Positions 4,346-20,935 of a stretch of DNA of 20,935 nt are shown here, one piece after another. The notes beneath the pieces were generated by a model. It was not told where the DNA came from, did no database searches, and saw nothing but the letters and a program-made list of their open reading frames with translations. This DNA is from a virus. Made by a program: the position numbers and the translations under genes. The first letter of the stretch is position 1. Each line of letters opens with the position of its first letter. Where the stretch lies: IMG/VR virus record IMGVR_UViG_3300048032_000422, positions 1-20,935 of that record. One strand, given 5' to 3'.

Positions 4346-7300
4346 TTATTCTCCGTTAAGAATGTTAATTTCATTTTGTAAGCTATCACATTTTGCTGAT
4401 AACTCTTGTACTGCTTTAATTAAAGGTTGGATAAACCCAACATATTCTAAACATTGTGTTCCTTCAACATCTGTAGTCCATCCACTAAAACCAGCAGGTA
4501 ATTCTGGATGATTGTCTATGGCTGTTTTTACTTCCTGTGCAATCATACCAAGTTGTACTTTTTCTAAGTTTAGATGTCTTACTTCTGAACCTTCTTTGTA
4601 TTGAGGCATATCATTTGGAATATCTTTTCTTTTTTTCCATTTAAAAGTTCTTGGTCTCAAGTCATTTATAAAACTTAACCCTACAGTAGAATCTGTAATT
4701 TCTTCCTTTAATCTTTCATCTGAACCTGCTGTAAAACCATTTGTACTACCATAAAGATAATATCCTTTATTAGTATTTTCCCCAACAGTAAAATAACCTG
4801 AGCCATTTGTGCTTAAGTCTCTACCAAAACCAAATTCACCATTACTACCTGATGCATAAGCAGGTTGCACATTTGCTCCTACACAGGTATGTCCTGAGCC
4901 TCCTGTTGTTACATTATCTCCAGCACCTTTGCCAATAAAAGTCATATTTGATGCTGTGGTAACATCTCCTCCTGCCAAATAACCTATCAATGTATTATCA
5001 GTCCCAGTAGTTGCATTAACCCCTGAACTTTTACCAACCCAAAGATTGCGTGAACCTGTGGTGTTTGAATATCCTGCTGCGTCTCCTAAAGCAGTATTTG
5101 TAGCACCTGTGGTGTTTGCTTTTAAAGAATCAAGTCCAACAGCAGTATTGTTAGAGGCGGTGGTGTTTGCAAATAAAGCATTTCTACCAACTGCTGTGTT
5201 GTCATCACCTGTGCTGTTAGAACCTAAAGAACTTTTACCTATTGCTGTATTTCTATTGCCAGTAGTATTGGCATCATTTGCTAAAGCACCAACTGCGGTG
5301 TTATCTGTACCTGTGGTGTTTTTTCGTAAAGCATCGTAACCAACTGCTGTGTTGTTACTTGCTGTGGTATTGTCGCCCAAGGCAAGATAACCAAGTGCTG
5401 TGTTATTACCACCAGTTGTGTTATCAAACATAGCACCATGACCCACTGCTGAATTATTAGCTCCTGTGGTGTTGTTTGCTAACCCACTTGTTCCTAATGT
5501 TACATTTGAATGTCCTGTGGTGTTATCAAGCAATGCATCCTTGCCAACTGCTGCGTTGTTATATCCTGTGGTATTAGAATACAAAGCACTTGTACCTAGA
5601 CCAGTATTAGTTGCTCCTGTTGTAGTCAAAGCACCTGCATAAGCACCTAAAAAAGTATTTTCTGCTGCTGTTGTTTGTGTTGAACCTGCAAGATATCCTA
5701 TTGCAGTGTTATAACTTGCGGTAGTACAGGCATCTAGAGCTAAAGCACCTACCGCTGTATTTTGTGTGCCTGTGGTGTTTTGTTGTAAAGCATTTGAACC
5801 GATTGCAGTGTTGTTAGAAGCTGTAGTGTTAACTAATAACGAATTTTCACCCATAGCGACATTATCTGAACCTGTTGTATTGTCTCTCATGGAGTTTTTG
5901 CCAAAAGCATTGTTTTGTGCACCTGTGGTGTTTGCTCCTAATGCAGAGTAACCAACTGCGGTGTTGTTAGATGCTGTAGTATTTGCTCCTAAAGCTGCTC
6001 TACCAACTGCTGTGTTATTAGCACCTGTAGTATTAGCGTCTAATGCTGCTACCCCTACTGCTGTATTTTCTGCTCCAGTTGTATTAACTACCAACGAGTT
6101 ATAACCAACTGCGGTGTTATTTTGACCAGTAGTGTTTGCCGCTAAAGAAGACTTACCAACGGCTGTATTTCTTGGTCCTGTAGTGTTTAAATTTAAAGCT
6201 AAATAACCTAAAGCAGCATTATCAGCACCTGTAGTATTTTGTGAAAGCGAGGCAACTCCCACAGAAGTATTTCCATCTGCTGACGTATTATTTTCTAATG
6301 CTGTTCTTCCTACCGCAGTGTTATAACTCCCTGTCGTATTCGAATACAAAGCTCTATAACCAATGGCAGAGTTTCTATCACCTGTTGTTAAAGCCGCAAA
6401 AACATCTACACCTACTCCAGTATTTTGATCTGCTGCACTAATCGTGCCAGTAGAATCACTACCAACCATAATTGAGTCAGTAAAGTTTGTTCCACCTTCT
6501 TTGAATGTAACACCACCACCTGCTGCATCTTCCCAAGCAATTCCACTGCCTGTAGATGTTAAAACTTGTCCATCTGTGCCTTGAGAGCCTGCGATGGTTA
6601 GGTTGTTTAGTTCTACAGTTCCGTTTACATCTAATTTTTGTGTTGGCGAATCAGTTCCAATTCCAACGCTTCCATCAGAAGTGATAGTCATTTTAGTAGT
6701 TAATAAAGTACCTTTTTGTGTTTGAAACTCTATTTGTCCATCAGTATCACTATAATCTTCTACCCATACTCCTATACGACCATAAATATCTCCATCATTT
6801 TGAAAGTTAATAAAGCCTGTACCATACCCATCACCTAAAGTGCCACTTCTGTCTAAATTTATAACTGGGTATGTACTATCTTCTATGTGAAGTTTTGCAC
6901 TATTATCAATGGTTGAAGTTCCAATTCCAACACTTCCAGAGCTATCAATAGTAATAGCAGTAGACGTAGCATTATCGTCAATACCAGTTGATGTGAAACC
7001 TGTAAGCGTACCAACGCTTGTAATGTTAGGTTGAGCTGCTGTGGCTAGTGTGCCTGTAATGTTTCCTGAAGATTGGATAGTGCCTGTAATATTTATATTA
7101 CCAGTACCTGTAATGTCATTAGAGTTTAAGTCTAAATCACCACCAAGCTGAGGAGTTGTATCTTCTACAACATTGTTAATAGAAACTGCTTGTGCTCTGG
7201 CATCTGTATAATAAAGATTAGTGCCTTCAGATAAATCGCTTGTAGATTTACCAGAAAAAGCTGAGTTAAACCTAGCACTTGTGTAATATAAATTGGTTGT

Positions 7301-9919
7301 ACCTTCGCTGACTGTATCAGTATCGCCTTGAGTGAATGTTAGAACACCAGTGGTTGAGTTGTAAGCTAGTTGAGTTGATCCTTCTGAGATAGCAGCTCTG
7401 GCTCTAGCATCTGTGTAATATAAATTGGTTGAACCTTCTGAAATATCATCGCTGTCTAATACCACAGCTCCAGTTAATGTATTAACACTGGTTACTGGTG
7501 CTGCTGATGCTGTAAAGCTAATAACACCAGTTGAGCTGTTATAGCTTATATCACCAGAAGCAGAGATAGAACTTCTTGCTCTGGCTGTGGTGAAATATTC
7601 GTTAGTGCCTTCTGATAAGTCAGATGTAGATTTAGAGCTTAAATCTAAATTTGCCCCAGTTTGTAGATTAACTCTGGCATCTGCTCTGGCGTTTGTAAAA
7701 TAGAGGTTAGTTGAGCCTTCGCCAATATCATCAGTATCGTGATTTGAAACATCTGAAACTGTGCCAGTAACATTACCAGTGATATTACCTTCAATGTTAG
7801 CAACCAAAGTGCCAAGTGAATTAAGTGTAATGTTTCCTGTAGCACTGCCATCTGCTGTAGTCAGACCTAGTGTAAATTTGTCTGCTGACTCATCCCACAT
7901 AAAGATGCCATTATCTTGATTACCCCTGTTAATCAACATACCAGAATCATTTACTGGGCTGCCTGTTAGTCCTGCATTAAGCTGGAACAGATTATCTTCT
8001 ATATCTAAATTTGTAGTATCTAATGATGTTAGCGTTCCATTAACAGTTAAATTTCCTGCAACTGTTAAGCTGTCTGCTATTTGCACATCATCTGGCAAGG
8101 TTAAAGTTACATCAGCAGATTCACTGCCTGAGCCTGTAACTGTAATCTTATTAGAAGTGCCAGTAATTGTTTGAATGTAATTGCCTGTAGTATCTGTGCC
8201 AAGCGTTACGCTGTTGGCTTGCACACTACCAGCTACAACTCCCAAATTATCTACAAATGTTTTAGTAACTCTAGCATCAATAGCAGAGTTAGCCCTTGCA
8301 TCTGTATAATATAAATTAGTGTTTTCTGTTAAATCATTTGTTGTCTTGTTGCCAAAAGCAGAATCAAATCTAGCTTGTGTATAGTAAAGGTTAGAACCTT
8401 CGGTTAGATCGTCTGTATCTTTGGTTGCAAGTCTAGTATCAAACCTAGCATCGGTGTAATAAAGGTTAGTACCTTCTGCTAAATCGCCTGTATCTTTTGT
8501 AGCTAATCTGGTGTCAAAATCAGAATTAACTCTTGCAGTTGTATAGTAAAGATTAGAGCCCTCTGCCAAATCGCCTGTATCTTTTGTGCCTAATCTAGTA
8601 TCAAAGTCTGAATTAACCCTTGCAGTTGTATAGTAGAGATTGTTGACTCCTTCACTTAAAGAGTCAGTATCTTTTGTTGCAAGTCTAGTATCGAAGTCTG
8701 AATTAACTCTTGCAGTGGTGTAATAAAGATTAGAGCCCTCTGCTAAATCTCCAGTATCTTTGGTAGCCAGTCTAGTATCAAACATAGATTCGCCCCTAGC
8801 TGTAGTCCAGTAGAGATTAGTATTCTCTGGAACAATAGAAGTATCTAATGTTGATGTTGCTGATTGATTAGAGCCATTGCCTATAAATATTTTGCCATTG
8901 TCTAAGTTAGGCGTTGCATTTGATCTGCCAGCACCACCTACTTTAATTGATCCAGCAGAAGCATGGCTTCTAATAACCTTACCTATGTTTTGTATTTGTG
9001 AGCTTTCGCCTGTTGGTTCTGTGGTTGTATAAGCTCCTGCTGTTGTAGATACATATAGAATCTGACCCTCTGAAACTCCAGAAGTATCTAAATTCTCTAT
9101 TGTTCCAAAAGTTACAACCTGCAAAGCAGCATTATCATTTGCATCAGATAAAGCCAATCCAAAAGCAGGCATCTTAGATGCATCATCAGCTTTTGCTTGA
9201 GCTACTGTTGGCACATCTCCAGAAACTCCAGATATATAAACCACATCTCCAGCAGATAAAGCACCATCAGCTTTAGCGTTAAACCTAATACCACCCTCTA
9301 AATCACCTATAAACTCATTGCTTGCTGTAATAGTGTTAAAAGTAACATCACTGGTTACAGCAACAGCCTGACCAATAGCAACAACTGGTGTAGAGCTTTC
9401 GCCTGTTCCACCTGTAATTGTTACGCCAGTGCCACCAGATATGCTCTCAACATAATCGCCAGTGGTATCAGTTCCAAGAGTAATAGAGTTAATTTGAACA
9501 ACTGTAGATATATCTACATTAGCACTACCATCAAAAGAGACTGAACCAACAACATCGCCTGATAGAGATATGGTTCTTGCTGTTTCTAATGTGGTTGCTG
9601 TATCAGCGTTGCCTGTTAGGTCTCCAGTAACATTACCTGTAACATTGCCAGTTACATTACCTGTTACATCACCTGTTAAATTGCCTGTAAGTACATTGGA
9701 TGAGCTAATGCTTACGCCAAAAGTGATCCAAGCATTATTAGCAGCGTTTCTTATTTTTAATACGCTGTTTGCTGTATCTACCCATAACTGATGGGCAAAA
9801 GTAGTTGAAGGCTCGGTAGCCCCTGAATTAACTGTAGCAATAGCTGCTAGAGCGTTGTTTAAATCAGCTCTGAAGTCAGCTCCACTTTGGTTAGCTAAAT
9901 TATAATCGTGTTGTGCCAT
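4346..9919 (-). CDS. Giant repeat-rich tail fibre with C-terminal S74 intramolecular chaperone
   Basis: 1857 aa. Residues 1-70 form an N-terminal attachment domain (MAQHDYNLANQSGADFRADL..., WVDTANSVLKIRNAANNAW) of a type common in marine phage fibres. Then: seven VTGN-type tetrapeptides (77-104); beta-rich linker domains; seven NLYYT-x-AR units (368-550); a five-copy return of the same motif (738-912); and about 30 tandem 17-aa units of the form NTTGxxNTAVGxxALxx (1177-1687), typical of trimeric left-handed beta-roll stalks. The C-terminus (1733-1857) is a peptidase S74 chaperone: S1733 in SDERLKEEI with K1738 as the Ser-Lys pair, then GMIAQEVK and a terminal coiled coil. In this family the chaperone trimerises the fibre and cuts itself off just before the Ser. 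Role: host receptor contact. The upstream gene encodes its likely assembly chaperone. Confidence 0.9.
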   Translation of the reverse strand: MAQHDYNLANQSGADFRADLNNALAAIATVNSGATEPSTTFAHQLWVDTANSVLKIRNAANNAWITFGVSISSSNVLTGNLTGDVTGNVTGNVTGNVTGDLTGNADTATTLETARTISLSGDVVGSVSFDGSANVDISTVVQINSITLGTDTTGDYVESISGGTGVTITGGTGESSTPVVAIGQAVAVTSDVTFNTITASNEFIGDLEGGIRFNAKADGALSAGDVVYISGVSGDVPTVAQAKADDASKMPAFGLALSDANDNAALQVVTFGTIENLDTSGVSEGQILYVSTTAGAYTTTEPTGESSQIQNIGKVIRSHASAGSIKVGGAGRSNATPNLDNGKIFIGNGSNQSATSTLDTSIVPENTNLYWTTARGESMFDTRLATKDTGDLAEGSNLYYTTARVNSDFDTRLATKDTDSLSEGVNNLYYTTARVNSDFDTRLGTKDTGDLAEGSNLYYTTARVNSDFDTRLATKDTGDLAEGTNLYYTDARFDTRLATKDTDDLTEGSNLYYTQARFDSAFGNKTTNDLTENTNLYYTDARANSAIDARVTKTFVDNLGVVAGSVQANSVTLGTDTTGNYIQTITGTSNKITVTGSGSESADVTLTLPDDVQIADSLTVAGNLTVNGTLTSLDTTNLDIEDNLFQLNAGLTGSPVNDSGMLINRGNQDNGIFMWDESADKFTLGLTTADGSATGNITLNSLGTLVANIEGNITGNVTGTVSDVSNHDTDDIGEGSTNLYFTNARADARVNLQTGANLDLSSKSTSDLSEGTNEYFTTARARSSISASGDISYNSSTGVISFTASAAPVTSVNTLTGAVVLDSDDISEGSTNLYYTDARARAAISEGSTQLAYNSTTGVLTFTQGDTDTVSEGTTNLYYTSARFNSAFSGKSTSDLSEGTNLYYTDARAQAVSINNVVEDTTPQLGGDLDLNSNDITGTGNINITGTIQSSGNITGTLATAAQPNITSVGTLTGFTSTGIDDNATSTAITIDSSGSVGIGTSTIDNSAKLHIEDSTYPVINLDRSGTLGDGYGTGFINFQNDGDIYGRIGVWVEDYSDTDGQIEFQTQKGTLLTTKMTITSDGSVGIGTDSPTQKLDVNGTVELNNLTIAGSQGTDGQVLTSTGSGIAWEDAAGGGVTFKEGGTNFTDSIMVGSDSTGTISAADQNTGVGVDVFAALTTGDRNSAIGYRALYSNTTGSYNTAVGRTALENNTSADGNTSVGVASLSQNTTGADNAALGYLALNLNTTGPRNTAVGKSSLAANTTGQNNTAVGYNSLVVNTTGAENTAVGVAALDANTTGANNTAVGRAALGANTTASNNTAVGYSALGANTTGAQNNAFGKNSMRDNTTGSDNVAMGENSLLVNTTASNNTAIGSNALQQNTTGTQNTAVGALALDACTTASYNTAIGYLAGSTQTTAAENTFLGAYAGALTTTGATNTGLGTSALYSNTTGYNNAAVGKDALLDNTTGHSNVTLGTSGLANNTTGANNSAVGHGAMFDNTTGGNNTALGYLALGDNTTASNNTAVGYDALRKNTTGTDNTAVGALANDANTTGNRNTAIGKSSLGSNSTGDDNTAVGRNALFANTTASNNTAVGLDSLKANTTGATNTALGDAAGYSNTTGSRNLWVGKSSGVNATTGTDNTLIGYLAGGDVTTASNMTFIGKGAGDNVTTGGSGHTCVGANVQPAYASGSNGEFGFGRDLSTNGSGYFTVGENTNKGYYLYGSTNGFTAGSDERLKEEITDSTVGLSFINDLRPRTFKWKKRKDIPNDMPQYKEGSEVRHLNLEKVQLGMIAQEVKTAIDNHPELPAGFSGWTTDVEGTQCLEYVGFIQPLIKAVQELSAKCDSLQNEINILNGE
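4859..6391 (-). repeat. About 30 tandem 51-bp (17-aa) repeats in tail fibre
   Basis: Residues 1177-1687 divide without gaps into about 30 units of 17 residues with consensus NTTG-x-x-NTAVG-x-x-AL-x-x (one unit at the end is 18). Variable positions are x; Asn1, Thr2-3, Asn7 and Gly11 are nearly invariant. Gly4 is replaced by Ala in about eight units, mostly as TTAS. DNA copies differ at many third positions, so this is an old, protein-selected array and not a recent slippage product. Related repeats are known in trimeric adhesin heads and S74 fibres. Confidence 0.9.
7184..7708 (-). repeat. Second block of NLYYT-x-AR motifs in tail fibre
   Basis: Five degenerate returns of the motif (NLYFTNAR, NEYFTTAR, NLYYTDAR, NLYYTSAR, NLYYTDAR), each preceded by an (S)EG(S/T) turn and a D-x-S/D segment, spaced irregularly by beta-rich inserts of about 25-60 residues. 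It reads as a diverged copy of the 8270-8818 block. Confidence 0.75.
8270..8818 (-). repeat. Seven tandem ~29-aa repeats in tail fibre
   Basis: Residues 368-550. The full unit is NLYYTTARVNSDFDTRLATK followed by DTGDLAEGS (29 residues). Copies 2-4 are nearly identical in protein, copies 5-6 are shortened (20 and about 23 residues) and copy 7 is degenerate. The alternating helix-like and turn segments suggest a repeating coiled-coil/beta stalk. Confidence 0.85.
9608..9691 (-). repeat. Seven 12-bp tandem repeats encoding (V/L)TG(N/D)
   Basis: Codons 77-104 encode LTGN LTGD VTGN VTGN VTGN VTGD LTGN. DNA units are imperfect, mostly differing at third bases. The segment lies at the joint between the virion-binding N-terminus and the fibre shaft. 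Being a multiple of three, copy-number change would lengthen or shorten the linker without breaking the frame. Confidence 0.8.
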
Positions 9920-14887: not shown

Positions 14888-16348
14888 TTATACAACCCCC
14901 ATTTTGCCTTGATTGTTCATGGCATTGTTTATGATTGATGTTATCAATCCTTTTCTTGATGCTAGCAACTGATCAAAGCCAGCAGCATCAACTGTTGATA
15001 TGTTGAAATTGACTGTAGTTCCACCCATTGATTGACCTTTTGTATGATCTATAACTGTTTCATTAGGATGTACCATAGCTAAACGACCACCACGCCCATC
15101 CAATCCCCCTACTCTAGCACCCATACCAGTAAAACCACCCCCCTCAAAGTTATCAAGAGCAGATTTAAATGCACTTCCCAAAAATGAATCTTCTCCAAAT
15201 GCACTTGCTCCAAAACCAAGAACTTTTTTAATAATGTGAATTCTTATCAATTCATTTATTACAGAAGCTACAATCTTTTCTGCTAATTTTCCAAAATTTA
15301 AAAACTCTTTATTTGTAAAATCAAAAAATGTTTTGAATGAAGATGTTAGAGTTGAAGCAACAGAATTCAAACCCTTAAATTGAGTTTTCATTTTGTCAAA
15401 TTGACTTTCGTCAAACTTAAATTTGTTTGATATTTCACTTAATTTTTGTAATTCTGCTTTTATCTCAGCAATTCTGTTTCTTGTGCCTTCAACATCATCA
15501 GTTGTCAGTCCAAGCAAATCAGTCAGAGCACCTTGCATACCAAAACCAGCAGCTTGTTGAGTTCTTCTAAGCTGAGTTTCTAGACCAGCTAATTCTTCTT
15601 CTAACAAGGGAACAGTTTTTTTTCTTTCTATTAAACCTATTGTATCCAATAAATCTAAAAATGTATTTGATGTTGCTATTACAACCTGCTGTAGTGGTAG
15701 CAATGTGGCTCTTTTTAGCTCATTCATTGTGTCATTAAAAATTTCAGCCTGTCTTATAGATTCTTCTGGAATAATTCCAGTTGCAGCAGCAGCTAATTCT
15801 TTCATAGCTTCTGACCCATCTTTTCCCATCACTGCAAGTTTTACACCTGCTCTACCCATCAGATCAGCTAAAATAGCATTTTTTTCAAACTGACTGCCCA
15901 CACCATCAAGAGCTTCAAATAAATCTATAAATACTTCTTCTGCACCTCTAACAGAACCATCAGCGTTTTTAACTTGTACTCCAAGTTTTTGCAATGATCT
16001 ACCAGCTTCAGATGTTCTAAGCTGTGCTTGACCAACCATCTTGGTAAAATTCTGCATACCTTTGTTGAATTCTTCTGTAGTTAATCCAGACTGCTGAGCA
16101 GCAAATTGATAACGCTGTAAGAATTCAGTTTGTACGCCAATAGAATCTGCAACTTTTCCTATACTATCTGCAAGAGCTAATGTTTCATTTGTAAAATTAA
16201 CAATTTGCCTAACAGCAAAAACACCAGCAAAAGCACCAGCTAATTTTTTCATAGCTGACTGTGTACTGTTAATGTTTTTATTTACAGAATTAAAACCACC
16301 TTTAGTCTGATCCGATGCTTTAATTCTTAATTTGTAATCAGTTGCCAT
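14888..16348 (-). CDS. Tape measure protein
   Basis: 486 aa, start at ATG 16348 inside the end of the frameshifted chaperone frame. N-terminal helical part (KIKASDQTKGGFNSVNKN-like segment, then AMKKLAGAFAGVFAVRQI), a long helical centre (ADSIGVQTEFLQRYQFAAQQ, GLTTEEFNKGMQNFTKM, RSLQKLGVQVKNADGSVRG), a membrane-like amphipathic stretch near 350-390, and the Gly-rich C-terminus GGGFTGMGARVGGLDGRGG ending in AMVHPNETVIDHT, the motif seen at the end of lambda gpH-type proteins. It sets tail length and forms part of the DNA-ejection path. At about 1.5 angstrom per residue the tail would be near 73 nm, short for a siphovirus. Confidence 0.9.
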   Translation of the reverse strand: MATDYKLRIKASDQTKGGFNSVNKNINSTQSAMKKLAGAFAGVFAVRQIVNFTNETLALADSIGKVADSIGVQTEFLQRYQFAAQQSGLTTEEFNKGMQNFTKMVGQAQLRTSEAGRSLQKLGVQVKNADGSVRGAEEVFIDLFEALDGVGSQFEKNAILADLMGRAGVKLAVMGKDGSEAMKELAAAATGIIPEESIRQAEIFNDTMNELKRATLLPLQQVVIATSNTFLDLLDTIGLIERKKTVPLLEEELAGLETQLRRTQQAAGFGMQGALTDLLGLTTDDVEGTRNRIAEIKAELQKLSEISNKFKFDESQFDKMKTQFKGLNSVASTLTSSFKTFFDFTNKEFLNFGKLAEKIVASVINELIRIHIIKKVLGFGASAFGEDSFLGSAFKSALDNFEGGGFTGMGARVGGLDGRGGRLAMVHPNETVIDHTKGQSMGGTTVNFNISTVDAAGFDQLLASRKGLITSIINNAMNNQGKMGVV

Positions 16349-16825
16349 TTTTTATTTGCCTATTCTTTTCTTCCAAGTATGCCATCCACCCTGTAAATTC
16401 GGATAAGGTCATCTTTTCCTCTAACTCCTGTAATGTGCAATGCAGCATTTCAGCAAGATAGTATCTAGCAAATAAGTCCTTATCCTCTGCTACTTTTTTG
16501 CTTGTTCTTCTGCATTAGGAGTTGACATAATTTCTAATGCAACTCTTGCAAGAACATCTTTATCCACACCATGCATCATAGTGTGCTTGTCTGATAGATC
16601 AAAAACTTTTTCTCCATCAGAATCTAAGGCTTTATATATTAAGCAATAAGCCATCAACGCTACGTCATCATCTTTTGCAAGTTTCTGCAATTTAGACATC
16701 TCTGCTAATGTTAATGGCTTTGCATATATTTTAAGAACCTTCTCTCCATCACTCCACTCAGGTATTTCAATCTCTTTGATTTCCAAAGAATCAAAATGAG
16801 CTTTAGCCTTATCTATTACGCTCAT
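16338..16825 (-). CDS. Tail assembly chaperone G-T fusion made by -1 frameshift
   Basis: Reading gpG to Lys111 and slipping one base back on A-AAA-AAG (16499-16493) joins a second frame that continues 51 codons to TGA at 16338, total 162 aa. The extension (VAEDKDLFARYYLAEMLHC, then TLQELEEKMTLSEFTGWMAY LEEKN in two stretches) has the layout of T-domains: helix, 'tL.EL...Mt..Ef..W.AY'. Without the slip, TAG follows the heptamer directly. In lambda, gpGT binds the tape measure and recruits tail tube protein; a low fixed ratio G:GT is required. The T frame overlaps the start of the tape measure by 11 bases. Evidence for the frameshift is the heptamer, frame relation, position and T-like sequence; it has not been tested. 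Confidence 0.82.
16490..16825 (-). CDS. Tail assembly chaperone (gpG-like), unshifted product
   Basis: 111 aa. Typical short chaperone between the tail tube and the tape measure: SLEIKEIEIPEWSDGEKVLK strand pair, then KPLTLAEMSKLQKLAKDDDV and a helix-rich C-terminus (DKDVLARVALEIMSTPNAEE). The pattern 'e.pewg....i..kplt..E...l.k' is common to Phage_TAC-type proteins. It ends at TAG just after a slippery heptamer. In the lambda system G and GT together chaperone the tape measure. The start at 16825 lies two bases after the end of the tail tube gene and is the first ATG. Confidence 0.85.
   Translation of the reverse strand: MSVIDKAKAHFDSLEIKEIEIPEWSDGEKVLKIYAKPLTLAEMSKLQKLAKDDDVALMAYCLIYKALDSDGEKVFDLSDKHTMMHGVDKDVLARVALEIMSTPNAEEQAKK
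16493..16499 (-). promoter_or_regulatory. Programmed -1 ribosomal frameshift site AAAAAAG
   Basis: In frame the site reads gcA AAA AAG then TAG. This is the X-XXY-YYZ heptamer with the highest efficiency class in bacteria (the dnaX heptamer). After the slip the next codon is GTA. No obvious strong downstream stem was found; the adjacent stop codon may add a pause. Confidence 0.85.
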
Positions 16826-16827
16826 TT

Positions 16828-17217
16828 TTATACAGTGCTAGCTGTTAAAGCACCATTGCCTTGAACTGAAATACTAGCTTCAACCAAACCATCAAATGAT
16901 GCAGTTCTTGAAACACCAGTTACAATAGCTGAACCACTGTAATAAGTATCGCCAGAAGCATCGCCTTCAGGATAAACATTTAAAGTTACCTCTGATCCAA
17001 TGCTTAAAGCACCTTGACCTGATGTATCAGTTTCATCCCAAAATACATCTAAACTTCCTGAGAAATTTGTTAATGATGCTTTGTAAGTTCTAGCAGAATC
17101 ACCCATTGAAGTATCTTCTAAAGTATCAGCAGATTCTTCGATTGAGTAAGACCTTATTTCAGCTACAGCATTTGAGCCAACCTTTACAGTTCCCTCACTT
17201 CCTTTATGTGTTGCCAT
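16828..17217 (-). CDS. Major tail tube protein
   Basis: 129 aa, compact and beta-rich, with SEGTVKVGSNAVAEIRSYSI and LEDTSMGDSARTYKASLTNF, then SGSLDVFWDETDTSGQGAL and the C-terminal strands SGSAIVTGVSRTASFDGLVE. This is the pattern of siphovirus tail tube proteins (beta sandwich that forms hexameric rings), with 'D.t.mgd......gl..fsGsld' as its core. It is encoded between the tail terminator and the assembly chaperone, as in lambda (V before G). The 55-aa gene upstream ends 14 bases into this frame, so translation is coupled. Length is short but within the range of single-domain tubes; there is no Ig-like C-terminal domain. Confidence 0.88.
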   Translation of the reverse strand: MATHKGSEGTVKVGSNAVAEIRSYSIEESADTLEDTSMGDSARTYKASLTNFSGSLDVFWDETDTSGQGALSIGSEVTLNVYPEGDASGDTYYSGSAIVTGVSRTASFDGLVEASISVQGNGALTASTV

Positions 17218-17371
17218 TTTCTACCTCGTCTTTCGACTTTTCTTTAGAAGAAGATTTAGGTTTATCTTTCGATGGGGCTGCTTCTTCTTTCCAACCCTTA
17301 TTCAATAATGACTCAACCTTAGAAGGGTGAGCATCTATAGAAACTTTTCCGTCTGGACTAATCATTTTCAT
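17204..17371 (-). CDS. Small Lys-rich protein, 55 aa, between tail terminator and tail tube genes
   Basis: A strong ribosome site (AGGAGA, six bases before ATG 17371) starts a frame of 55 codons that ends at 17204, inside the tail tube gene (14-base overlap). The N-terminal half is ordered-looking (MISPDGKVSIDAHPSKVESL followed by LNKGWKEE), resembling the short 'GW' helix modules of head-tail accessory proteins (LEM/HeH-like, recalled by eye). The C-terminal half is a Lys/Ser-rich tail (SKDKPKSSSKEKSKDE), probably flexible. I do not recognise a family. Position suggests a role at the head-tail or tail tube stage. Alternative start at Met3 is possible. Confidence 0.75.
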   Translation of the reverse strand: MKMISPDGKVSIDAHPSKVESLLNKGWKEEAAPSKDKPKSSSKEKSKDEVENGNT

Positions 17372-17381
17372 AATTATCTCC

Positions 17382-17828
17382 TTAAACTGCTACGTCAGGA
17401 GCGTTTTCCTTGACATAGTAGTTTGTTAAAAATGTAAGAGAGACATAGCCCAATGGCTTTTCTCCCTCGCTGTTAAACTCTATCTCTGTGGATTCTAAAT
17501 AAGTATCTTTAGCCAATCCATCAAGAGTTCTGTCAGCAGCTATTGCTGCTTCAACTTCTTTGCTTATTGTATCAATAGTATCATCAAAGTTGCTAGTAGC
17601 TTTGGCATAACCTTCTACTACAACTGAGAGCTCTCTGCTCATAAGTCTTTGTGTTCCTATAACTATAGGCTCAGATGTTTCTGATTTTGTATAAATAATT
17701 AATGCTGGTAAAGAAGCATTTTCTAAAGGGTAAACTCTGGACTCATAAACATTAGAGCCAGTGGTTGTTAATCCTGTTAGGGTTGTTCCAAGTTTCTCTC
17801 TGATTTGTTGTCTAATATGATTTGCCAT
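17382..17828 (-). CDS. Tail terminator protein (gpU-like)
   Basis: 148 aa. N-terminal helix (HIRQQIREKLGTTLTGL), a strand around SRVYPLENASLPALIIYTK, SRELSVVVEGYAKATSNFDD, helix TIDTISKEVEAAIAADRTLD and a final strand region (YVSLTFLTNYYVKENAP). The order 'helix, V..sRv.pl....LPal.iyt..e..., r.L.l.ve......f.d.ld.i..evE.al' is what is seen in minor tail/terminator proteins that cap the tail tube before head joining. It follows two connector candidates and precedes the tail tube gene. Starts in a TAATG overlap with the upstream gene. Call based on layout and position. Confidence 0.75.
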   Translation of the reverse strand: MANHIRQQIREKLGTTLTGLTTTGSNVYESRVYPLENASLPALIIYTKSETSEPIVIGTQRLMSRELSVVVEGYAKATSNFDDTIDTISKEVEAAIAADRTLDGLAKDTYLESTEIEFNSEGEKPLGYVSLTFLTNYYVKENAPDVAV

Positions 17829-18178
17829 TATATTTCCTCAAGCATCAAAGCAGAAAAACCAGTTCTATCTGCTTGTATATTAACAACTGTATAATTTTGT
17901 GCTGCTTTTAATGTATTACCATCAACGTCTTTGATAGCTGCAACAGCTAAAGTATTTCCAAATGATATATTTGGAACGTCTATGGTTCTGCAATAGGCTA
18001 TAGGTTTTACTGCTTCCACACCTATACCTTCTTCTTGTTCAACATATTCATTATTTAGAATAATTTTAATAGTAGAATCTGATCCATTATTTGTGTAAAC
18101 AGCAGACACACCATGACCATATTCTATATCTAAATATGCAATCATATCTTCTTCTGTTTCCATTTGATATTGAGACAT
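17828..18178 (-). CDS. Head-tail connector candidate, copy B
   Basis: 116 aa and a paralogue of the gene immediately upstream. Shared positions include DIEYGHGVSAVY (DI-x-x-GHGV), a beta strand with I-x-I-I and EY, PIAYCRTIDVPNISFGNTLAV and the C-terminal TGFSALMLEE. These are beta-rich small proteins at the site where lambda has FII and other siphoviruses have gp16/gp17-like head-completion proteins. Role as head-tail joining or stopper is inferred from position. TAATG overlaps on both sides. I do not recognise a Pfam family with certainty. Confidence 0.65.
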   Translation of the reverse strand: MSQYQMETEEDMIAYLDIEYGHGVSAVYTNNGSDSTIKIILNNEYVEQEEGIGVEAVKPIAYCRTIDVPNISFGNTLAVAAIKDVDGNTLKAAQNYTVVNIQADRTGFSALMLEEI

Positions 18179-18582
18179 TATTGCTCCTCTAATACCAGTG
18201 AAACTAAGCCTGTATTATCAGGCTCAACTGTTTTTACTAAAAATGTTGTTTCTGGTTTTAATACACTACCCCTATTAGTTGTAATAGCATTTACAACTAA
18301 TTTATCTTCATGCGATATATAAGGAGCATCAGTTGCTTTAATAATTGCTCTGGGCTGATACCCAGCAACAGGAACTGTGCCACCTTCTATGTTGAAATAT
18401 TCTTGATCTATGATGATGTTGATATTGGTTGTATTTCCAGAATCGATGTCAAACCAAGTGTCAATGAGACCATTTCTCTGATCCCATAATGATTGTTGCA
18501 CCTCGAAGAATGTAGCAGTAACTCCATGACCTGTGTTGATGTCTACATAGGAGTTAAAATCTGCTGCACTCTCGATGGGCAT
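18178..18582 (-). CDS. Head-tail connector candidate, copy A
   Basis: 134 aa, paralogous to the downstream neighbour (DINTGHGVTATFFE, NINIIIDQEYFNIEGG, PRAIIKATDAPYISHEDKLV, LKPETTFLVKTVEPDNTG, SLVLEEQ), with a 17-18 residue insertion around QQSLWDQRNGLIDTWFDID. Probably one of a pair of ring proteins joining head and tail. The upstream 71-aa gene ends only three bases before the ATG; no clear Shine-Dalgarno site is seen, so it may be coupled. Confidence 0.65.
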   Translation of the reverse strand: MPIESAADFNSYVDINTGHGVTATFFEVQQSLWDQRNGLIDTWFDIDSGNTTNINIIIDQEYFNIEGGTVPVAGYQPRAIIKATDAPYISHEDKLVVNAITTNRGSVLKPETTFLVKTVEPDNTGLVSLVLEEQ

Positions 18583-18850: not shown

Positions 18851-20104
18851 TTAGTCAGATGACTTACAGAAACTAACAGCATGACGAACTGCTACGTCTA
18901 CAGTTTGTAGAGCAATAATTCTCACACCACCTGCTTTTGAAAGTGCATAAGGATCAACAGTAATGTCTAATCCACCATACATTCCAATTAACAAGTCAGC
19001 AAAGTTTCCAAAGTAGAAATCACCTGAAGTTACTTGATTACTTCTGATAACATTGTAGCCATTCATTCTTCCATCAGGCTCAACAACGAACTGACCAGAA
19101 CCTGTGTCCTTGCTAGTTGTTTTCAATGTTCCATAGTCTGCTGGCTTACAAATGTAAGACAATGAACCAGACAATGCATTATCAGCAGCAACAGCACTTT
19201 CCATAGCTATAACCTCAGCAAAAGTTGGGCTAGCAGCAGCAAATGTTGTTGTATTGATTCCAGAAGTGTTAGCAATACCAGTTGGTTGACCACTTGAACC
19301 ACTACCAGCCAAAGCACCTAAATCAATTGCAAGAGCAATAGATTGTGTTAGGTCATCTCTGATTAAGTTTTCAATATCTAATGAAGATTGTTGAAGCATT
19401 AATCTTGAAGCATCAGTGTGAGCACCGATAACTTTAGGAGACATGGTTACTGATCCTGAAGTGAATTCAGACTCAGCAGAGTCTCCACCTTCAGTAGCAA
19501 TCCAGCCAGCAGAAGCAGCAGCAGTTTTCTTAGGAATAACCACGTTGCCTTGTAATCCACGAAGCATAGTTGCACCAGCTTGCATTACAGAAGAAGAGTT
19601 TCTTAGAACGTCTATGAAATCTCCACCTTTATAATCTTCAGCGATAAGAGTAGAGTCATCACTTGTGTTCAGGTCTCTAGTCCAGTTACGAAGAACGTCA
19701 GCAGGAAGCATAATTCCTTGTGCTACTTTGCCATGTTCTCTAGCAGCTTGCTCTGAACATTCGAATTCGAATTCAGCGGCTCGCTGTGCATTTCTGTCAG
19801 AAGGGTTAGCAAGAGCGTTTATAGCTTTTACTAAACTAAATCTTCTAACTTCTTTTGGTGTCATTCCGATTTCAGAAGGAGTTTCAAGTGGAGTGTTATT
19901 AGAAATGTTTTCCAATAATATTCCTCTGAACTCTTCAACAGATACACCTTCTTGAATAGCCTTGTCAGCTAGGTCTCTTTTATTGTGCTTTACAGCAAGA
20001 TCAATGATCTCTTTTGAATTTCTTTTGAATTCAGCTTTTGCTTCGTCAGCACTTTGAGCTCTAACTTCATCAAGGTTAATTTCATTTTTAACTTCTTCAG
20101 TCAT
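18851..20104 (-). CDS. Possible separately initiated capsid protein (nested start)
   Basis: An internal in-frame ATG at 20104 (MTEEVKNEINLDEV) begins the capsid half of the fusion. It is preceded by AAAGGT six to seven bases upstream, a fair ribosome site. Starting here would make a 417-aa capsid precursor, the normal size for a stand-alone major capsid protein with delta domain. This would allow more capsid than protease to be made from one gene. Proposal only; alternatively the whole fusion is made and cut by its own protease. Confidence 0.4.
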   Translation of the reverse strand: MTEEVKNEINLDEVRAQSADEAKAEFKRNSKEIIDLAVKHNKRDLADKAIQEGVSVEEFRGILLENISNNTPLETPSEIGMTPKEVRRFSLVKAINALANPSDRNAQRAAEFEFECSEQAAREHGKVAQGIMLPADVLRNWTRDLNTSDDSTLIAEDYKGGDFIDVLRNSSSVMQAGATMLRGLQGNVVIPKKTAAASAGWIATEGGDSAESEFTSGSVTMSPKVIGAHTDASRLMLQQSSLDIENLIRDDLTQSIALAIDLGALAGSGSSGQPTGIANTSGINTTTFAAASPTFAEVIAMESAVAADNALSGSLSYICKPADYGTLKTTSKDTGSGQFVVEPDGRMNGYNVIRSNQVTSGDFYFGNFADLLIGMYGGLDITVDPYALSKAGGVRIIALQTVDVAVRHAVSFCKSSD

Positions 20105-20785
20105 TTTTGTTACCTTTATTTGAGTTTTAGTTTGTTTATCTTTAGAACGTCCAACGCCTACAAGTCTGGATTGATCAGCAGGAACGCTAACAGAAGAAAC
20201 TTCCATTGGCGTCCAATTTGCTTTGTAATAATCCTCGCCATCACGTTGAATACGCTCCAGTTTATCTATCCTGTAGCCTACAGAGATATTCATACGAATA
20301 CCATCTTTGACATCTTCATATACTTCTCGAGCTAGTTCGCTTTTTCCAAAGCGTACAACAGCAGTTGTCCTTTTTGCTGTCTCGTCAAGTTTGAATTCTT
20401 CAATTACACCTATTTGCTTGGTCATATCGTGATCAAGGAGCAGTGGTGCTCGCCCAGATGCTATAAACTCCATGTTTATATCACCTTCAGAATGTCCTAG
20501 CACTTCCATGCCAAAACTTCTTTCAACAGGTTCTTCAGAAGAAACGCCAACTCTGACTCTACGATTTTCTTCATCAACATAAGAAGCTCTGGAAAGATCA
20601 ACAGTCCTATATTTCATAGGCATATGTACAACCTTTCTTTCTTCCTCATCTTGATCCATCATAGAAACTTCCTCAGCCATTTCTACTTCTTCACCTTCTT
20701 CTACATCCTCATGTTTCTCAAACTCAACGATAACAGAGTTATCAGTTTCAGAAACGCTGAGGATATGTCTATCTTCTTTTAACAT
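18851..20785 (-). CDS. Fused prohead protease and HK97-fold major capsid protein
   Basis: A 644-aa product from ATG 20785 (GAGGAG six bases before it). Residues 1-55 are acidic and disordered. About 60-213 is an HK97-type prohead protease (S78/U35): LLLDHD with H119, NISVGYR with S168, and an acidic third residue candidate in MEVSSVSVPAD (E195). About 228-645 is the capsid part: a helical delta/scaffold region (EEVKNEINLDEVRAQSADEA...), then SLVKAINALANPSDR, the P-domain and A-domain, LGALAGSGSSGQPTGI (E-loop-to-P-domain region) and C-terminal strands (GGVRIIALQTVDVAVRHAVS). The two parts are separate proteins in HK97 (about 225 and 385 aa). The frame remains open upstream of 20785 to the right edge, so a longer product is not excluded. 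Confidence 0.9.
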   Translation of the reverse strand: MLKEDRHILSVSETDNSVIVEFEKHEDVEEGEEVEMAEEVSMMDQDEEERKVVHMPMKYRTVDLSRASYVDEENRRVRVGVSSEEPVERSFGMEVLGHSEGDINMEFIASGRAPLLLDHDMTKQIGVIEEFKLDETAKRTTAVVRFGKSELAREVYEDVKDGIRMNISVGYRIDKLERIQRDGEDYYKANWTPMEVSSVSVPADQSRLVGVGRSKDKQTKTQIKVTKMTEEVKNEINLDEVRAQSADEAKAEFKRNSKEIIDLAVKHNKRDLADKAIQEGVSVEEFRGILLENISNNTPLETPSEIGMTPKEVRRFSLVKAINALANPSDRNAQRAAEFEFECSEQAAREHGKVAQGIMLPADVLRNWTRDLNTSDDSTLIAEDYKGGDFIDVLRNSSSVMQAGATMLRGLQGNVVIPKKTAAASAGWIATEGGDSAESEFTSGSVTMSPKVIGAHTDASRLMLQQSSLDIENLIRDDLTQSIALAIDLGALAGSGSSGQPTGIANTSGINTTTFAAASPTFAEVIAMESAVAADNALSGSLSYICKPADYGTLKTTSKDTGSGQFVVEPDGRMNGYNVIRSNQVTSGDFYFGNFADLLIGMYGGLDITVDPYALSKAGGVRIIALQTVDVAVRHAVSFCKSSD

Positions 20786-20935
20786 AGTTTTCTCCTCAGT
20801 ATTTTCTACTGGATGTACTTCCAATTCATTTGAATTGAAATCGTTAAAATCCCTTATGGGATTAATCTTGGTTAATGTGCTGAACTTATGACCCACTTCG
20901 GTATCAGTAGGTTCACCACTTCTATAAATTTGTAT
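20783..20935 (-). other. Open reading frame upstream of capsid fusion, extending off right edge
   Basis: The capsid frame has no stop before the right edge; its first 50 codons in the window read IQIYRSGEPTDTEVGHKFST then LTKINPIRDFNDFNSNELEV. A GTG start at 20896 is in this stretch but has no ribosome site. It may be the end of an upstream reading frame (portal region) or simply noncoding. The other two frames carry a stop at 20872-20874 and 20922-20924. Not enough sequence to decide. Confidence 0.35.

Follow-up and report, generated by a model that had tools for sequence, protein, structure and literature searches.

The window, i.e. the whole stretch of DNA analysed here, corresponds to a 20,935-base virus record of IMG/VR. 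Profile matches place the tail terminator, tail tube, G(T) and tape measure genes in this order. The gpG-like tail assembly chaperone ORF (16825-16490, minus strand) encodes 111 aa, ends with TAG and matches PHROG 20784, 344 and 16513 as well as, by predicted fold, 2OB9. It is located between the major tail (tube) protein gene (16828-17217, minus strand; PHROG 1407, 6.6e-16, with Phage_tail_2 just below cut-off), which is the expected partner of T, and the tape measure protein gene (14888-16348, minus strand; PHROG tape measure families, with PhageMin_Tail below cut-off), which is the expected partner of G. This is the position of a lambda-type G/GT gene. The nearest cultured relatives are the Roseobacter CRP-822-type phages (the capsid is 60.6% identical to that of CRP-811), with patchy similarity at the DNA level.

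The 3' end of the gpG-like ORF reads GCA AAA AAG TAG. The slippery heptamer A_AAA_AAG (16499-16493, minus strand) is in the right phase for tandem -1 slippage and adjoins the 0-frame stop TAG (16492-16490, minus strand), which is TAA or TGA in relatives and rarely a non-stop codon. The -1 frame T domain (16493-16338, minus strand) comprises 51 codons (16493-16341) followed by TGA (16340-16338), the protein sequence of the extension being VAEDKDLFARYYLAEMLHCTLQELEEKMTLSEFTGWMAYLEEKNRQIKNGN, and the predicted G-T fusion is 162 aa long. The tape measure ATG starts at 16348, giving an 11 nt overlap with T, and the stretch without a called gene is 16349-16489. Hence, coordinates and phase bear out the initial annotation with respect to the A-AAA-AAG next to the stop, the 111-aa gene call with an uncalled gap behind it and the 51-codon -1 extension whose end lies 11 bases into the tape measure gene.

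A TAA at 16517-16515 closes the -1 frame upstream, so the shift is confined to 16514-16493, i.e. approximately the last seven codons before the stop, and no second XXXYYYZ heptamer is present in this zone. Elsewhere in the window's genes we found 39 phase-correct XXXYYYZ motifs in 6382 codon pairs (each gene's final codon pair was skipped), none of them A_AAA_AAG. More telling is that the motif together with an open -1 frame recurs in relatives beyond what chance would give.

Conservation of the slip site and coding of the -1 frame

Among 80 IMG/VR loci close to the window nearly all G ends consist of A_AAA_AAG followed by TAG or TAA, with the same -1 extension. Wider searches brought the number of loci whose G end could be read to 252; their sources are phages of Pelagibacter, Roseobacter and Rhodobacter as well as uncultured phages. 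The heptamer contacts the 0-frame stop in 237 of these, where the open -1 frame recurs, and in 69 of the 75 clusters formed at 90% nucleotide identity; the conservation check proposed in the initial annotation thus came out in its favour. The window lineage and HTVC111P/112P have A_AAA_AAG as heptamer, the HTVC202P/026P, CRP and DSL-LC06 lineages A_AAA_AAC and RcCronus G_GGA_AAC, and the XXXYYYZ form and phase of the heptamer are preserved in every lineage. The distance between heptamer and stop is 3 nt in phi3LM21-type prophages and one pelagiphage cluster, and 12 nt in two clusters. When the phi3LM21 fusion was used as query against genome contigs only two rhizobial prophages were retrieved, and a plasmid search gave no match. 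The further exceptions are single damaged contigs, e.g. L051, which is intact except for an early stop inside G, and in L054 the sequence runs out at the contig edge. In L116 (1501-1920) a deletion between two A-runs removes the G end and brings T into the frame of G; this is either a real variant or an assembly error.

These data bear on whether RNA polymerase slippage on the A-run, and not the ribosome, puts G and T in one frame in some of the mRNAs. There is an A-run at the junction, and in the HTVC202P lineage it comprises nine As, a length sufficient for transcriptional slippage (PMC3711429). In contrast, the window and its relatives have six As, always with G after and C or T before, which is fewer than the approximately 8-9 or more consecutive As or Ts that characterise a transcriptional slippage site. 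Moreover, RcCronus has G_GGA_AAC without any long run, and the heptamer is constant in XXXYYYZ form and phase in all lineages. Overall we consider this explanation very improbable; because the run is six As, polymerase slippage is unlikely in the window, and it is possible in the HTVC202P lineage with its A9.

Purifying selection acts on the T extension in the -1 frame only. Specifically, in the window lineage dN/dS is 0.127 for T in the -1 frame and 0.105 for G, compared to 1.63 and 1.24 when the same T-region bases are read in the other two frames. The mean number of stops in the T region is 6.7 and 4.2 in the other frames and none in the -1 frame, which is where stops in relatives would, according to the initial annotation, have spoken against a frameshift. 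The pattern is the same in the CRP and pelagiphage lineages (T dN/dS 0.19 and 0.36, respectively). The fused G-T proteins of relatives align across the junction, and together with the dN/dS value this means that the extension is kept as a protein in the -1 frame, as in a lambda-type G/GT. The -1 frame could also be a remnant or a sequencing artefact, leaving G as the sole product, and single damaged contigs (L051 and L116) do exist. We regard this as scarcely credible, given purifying selection in the -1 frame and the recurrence of this layout in cultured phages and hundreds of independent contigs.

With respect to homology, PHROG 16513, "tail assembly chaperone", spans residues 3-152 of the fusion and continues through the junction (1.1e-9). 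The tail family PHROG 337 is matched by T on its own (1e-5) and by 19 of 40 T relatives. For G, Pfam Phage_TAC_13 scored 15.9 bits, which is below the cut-off of 28.8 bits, and the Pfam matches of other G relatives (MKRN1_C and others) were taken as noise. A sequence-profile search of solved structures gave nothing for G, and for T weak matches to designed repeats and an unrelated effector, none of which is relevant. AlphaFold gave models of high confidence for both parts, with pLDDT values of 88.7 for G and 92.3 for T, the latter with three helices. The best PDB match of the G model is 2OB9, the HK97 tail assembly chaperone (prob 1.00, TM 0.52, E 1.6e-3), followed by 3KLU, YqbN (prob 0.98, TM about 0.5), and in a viral structure library the RcRhea tail assembly chaperone (A0A0K1LL64, 160 aa) matches both the G model and the T model. 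On the basis of these models G is predicted to have a tail assembly chaperone fold, in keeping with a lambda-type G.

T might also be thought of as a separate small gene, with independent or coupled initiation within the -1 frame, and most of the window lineage has an ATG at T codon 16 (16448-16446). This ATG is missing in L010, a start at codon 16 would leave T without its first helix, and none of the first 20 T codons of the pelagiphage lineage resembles a start; moreover, both the selection and the PHROG 16513 match continue through the junction. An independent T start was rejected because of L010 and the pelagiphage lineage, and with all the evidence taken together a separate T gene appears extremely improbable.

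A predicted G/GT pair and its known counterparts

Taken together, the gene position, the fold of G, the T-like extension, the conserved heptamer and -1 frame and the annotated precedents support the reading in the initial annotation, and we conclude that this gene of a marine siphovirus-like phage very probably makes G and GT by lambda-type programmed -1 frameshifting. What the analysis shows is the sequence signal and its conservation, selection on the -1 frame at the protein level, homology and fold; the ribosomal nature of the slippage, its rate and its role in assembly are inferred. The majority of ribosomes would translate 111 codons and halt at TAG to give G, while a minority would slip one base back on A_AAA_AAG, with tRNA-Lys re-pairing from AAA/AAG to AAA/AAA. 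The slipped ribosomes would bypass TAG and produce the 162-aa GT with its three-helix T domain. By analogy with lambda, the tape measure protein would be coated by many G and few GT, T would recruit the tail tube subunits, and both G and GT would depart from the finished tail. The abutting stop may let the release factor compete with slippage and in this way help to set the G:GT ratio.

In phage lambda the production of a short and a long tail chaperone by a -1 slip has long been known, and the slip site is GGGAAAG. The window resembles lambda G/GT with respect to gene order, a short and a (here predicted) frameshifted long form, the -1 direction and a T that ends near the tape measure start. 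It differs in having A_AAA_AAG and not G_GGA_AAG, a stop directly after the heptamer and a T of 51 aa. The lambda G:GT ratio is approximately 30:1 and matters for assembly (review PMC5009743), and two cloned tail chaperone genes gave 6-7% shift when tested (PMC3711429).

Among closer counterparts, the database records of the Rhodobacter phages RcCronus and RcSaxon annotate a joined CDS. They share with the window homologous G and T, the gene order and the contact between heptamer and stop (G_GGA_AAC TGA in RcCronus), but differ in having about 30% identity, a different heptamer and a hairpin predicted downstream. The Roseobacter CRP-822-type phages and Pelagibacter HTVC202P, 026P, 111P and 112P also have homologous G and T, the latter in the -1 frame, and heptamer-stop contact, but mostly with A_AAA_AAC (A_AAA_AAG in HTVC111P/112P). 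T is unannotated in the Pelagibacter and Roseobacter phage records examined, and our data thus close an annotation gap concerning a conserved domain of 45-63 aa; standard gene calling would likewise overlook the T domain in uncultured relatives. In the HTVC111P and HTVC112P records, gp45 (L085, 1906-2058) and gp41 (L092, 1906-2052), respectively, are annotated antisense across the T extension, and these two are probably false genes.

AAAAAAG slip sites have been predicted in tail chaperone genes of Paenibacillus larvae phages (PMC6003738), and a stop-adjacent AAAAAAC in that of Acinetobacter phage Loki, with an identical motif in IME_AB3 (PMC5313236); the likeness of these phages to the window refers to published slip-site predictions only, and neither paper holds a conservation survey of the slip site. 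Hence, both A_AAA_AAG in tail chaperone genes and contact between heptamer and stop have precedents. What stands out is only this contact and its retention across many marine phages. It is mildly new that the abutting stop itself looks selected, judging from sequence comparison in two lineages, and that the window's lineage is without a conserved hairpin or Shine-Dalgarno stimulator.

Stimulatory elements and the adjacent stop codon

In E. coli dnaX the slip site is flanked by an upstream Shine-Dalgarno (SD) and a downstream hairpin, the shift is about 50% and it yields the shorter product. The initial annotation described the window's slip site as being of the dnaX type, which is correct for the heptamer, A_AAA_AAG in both, but not for the stimulators, since the window lineage is without a conserved SD or hairpin; in addition, the window's predicted frameshift product is the longer one. 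Upstream of the heptamer the window reads GCAGAAGAACAAGC, which has no SD-like core. After dereplication, only 2 of the 21 sequences from the window lineage have an SD-like element, and an internal SD was therefore rejected as stimulator in this lineage. Downstream, pseudoknot-free folding gave weak pairing and no conserved hairpin in the window lineage (RNAalifold -1.2 kcal/mol, no covariation; single-sequence z -1.1). A stem pairing the stop codon (UAGCAGA with UUUGCUA) was rejected as a conserved stimulator, since the pairing is lost where relatives read UAACAGA or UAAUUGA and the alifold energy is -1.2 kcal/mol.

Other lineages differ in this respect. Plausible hairpins are predicted downstream in HTVC111P/112P and in RcCronus, that of RcCronus being GC-rich. 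CRP-lineage loci (e.g. L082, where G ends at 1791) have GAGGA 6 nt upstream of A_AAA_AAC, and 29 of 31 CRP-type phages were positive in the scan for SD-like motifs. As read from the sequence, this GAGGA is a possible internal SD with a spacing shorter than in dnaX.

Gene trees and codon usage in T provide some insight into the role of the stop itself. As a guide only, since related sequences are not independent, the gene trees indicate that the stop codon changed six times at its third base (A/G) in the window lineage and six times at its second base (A/G) in the CRP lineage, each time to another stop, such that all 12 inferred base changes preserve a stop. Likewise as a guide for the same reason, T codon 1 is CTA or CTG in 24/24 CRP clusters, compared to CTR being 43% of CTN in the rest of these genes, and Arg at T codon 2 is AGA/AGG in 15/15, compared to AGR being 23% of Arg codons elsewhere. 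This suggests that the abutting stop may itself be maintained by selection. One interpretation is that, across several marine alphaproteobacterial phage families, a stop in contact with the slip site contributes functionally to the signal. In the window's lineage, without hairpin or SD, the slip would then take place while the stop waits in the A site, and release factor supply would set the G:GT ratio. We put this forward as a tentative proposal that is rather doubtful at present.

We see about an even chance that the stop at the heptamer is simply a convenient end of G with no part in the slip. G terminates alike in all these phages, the position of the G end may be the sole target of selection, and the stop conservation and the codon bias are equally compatible with selection on G length alone. 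Adjacency is, moreover, not essential: it was lost three times in the pelagiphage lineage according to the gene trees, and some relatives have distances of 3 and 12 nt. The stop-to-stop changes in both lineages and the CTR and AGR codons at T codons 1 and 2 speak against a stop without function in the slip.

When the HIV site was tested in bacteria a stop at that position reduced slippage, and extra RF2 abolished it (PMC4373837), which means that the abutting stop here could just as well keep the ratio down as increase it. In the PRFect data heptamer and stop are on average 26 nt apart in SEA-PHAGES genomes and 36 nt apart in the Xu set (PMC10885494), placing zero distance as a lineage rule on the unusual side. 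The loci provide a natural set of minimal -1 signals, consisting of heptamer and stop with no evident stimulator in the window's lineage, and the A_AAA_AAG, A_AAA_AAC and G_GGA_AAC variants would be useful for testing how an adjacent stop and release factor tune -1 slippage. If the stop is merely a convenient G end, the system is an ordinary one.

Other features of the window

The other neighbours of the G/GT gene include a fused S78 protease-capsid, a head closure pair, a distal tail protein and a hub protein. The fusion is a single ORF (18851-20896, minus strand) that joins prohead protease S78 with the capsid. The head closure genes (17828-18178 and 18178-18582, minus strand) are adjoining paralogues with 30.5% identity over 131 aa (E 2.7e-17), each with a match to Phage_attach / PHROG 82, a head closure family. 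The interval between tail terminator and tail tube holds a lysine/serine-rich ORF of 55 aa (17204-17371, minus strand), which overlaps the tail tube start by 14 nt and is under the size cut of the ORF list. A Pfam search with it gave no match, and a small gene is annotated at the equivalent position in Pelagibacter phage HTVC111P. Finally, an 1857-aa fibre-like protein (4346-9919, minus strand) carries a Peptidase_S74 chaperone domain at its C-terminus and long arrays of short repeats containing NTTG.
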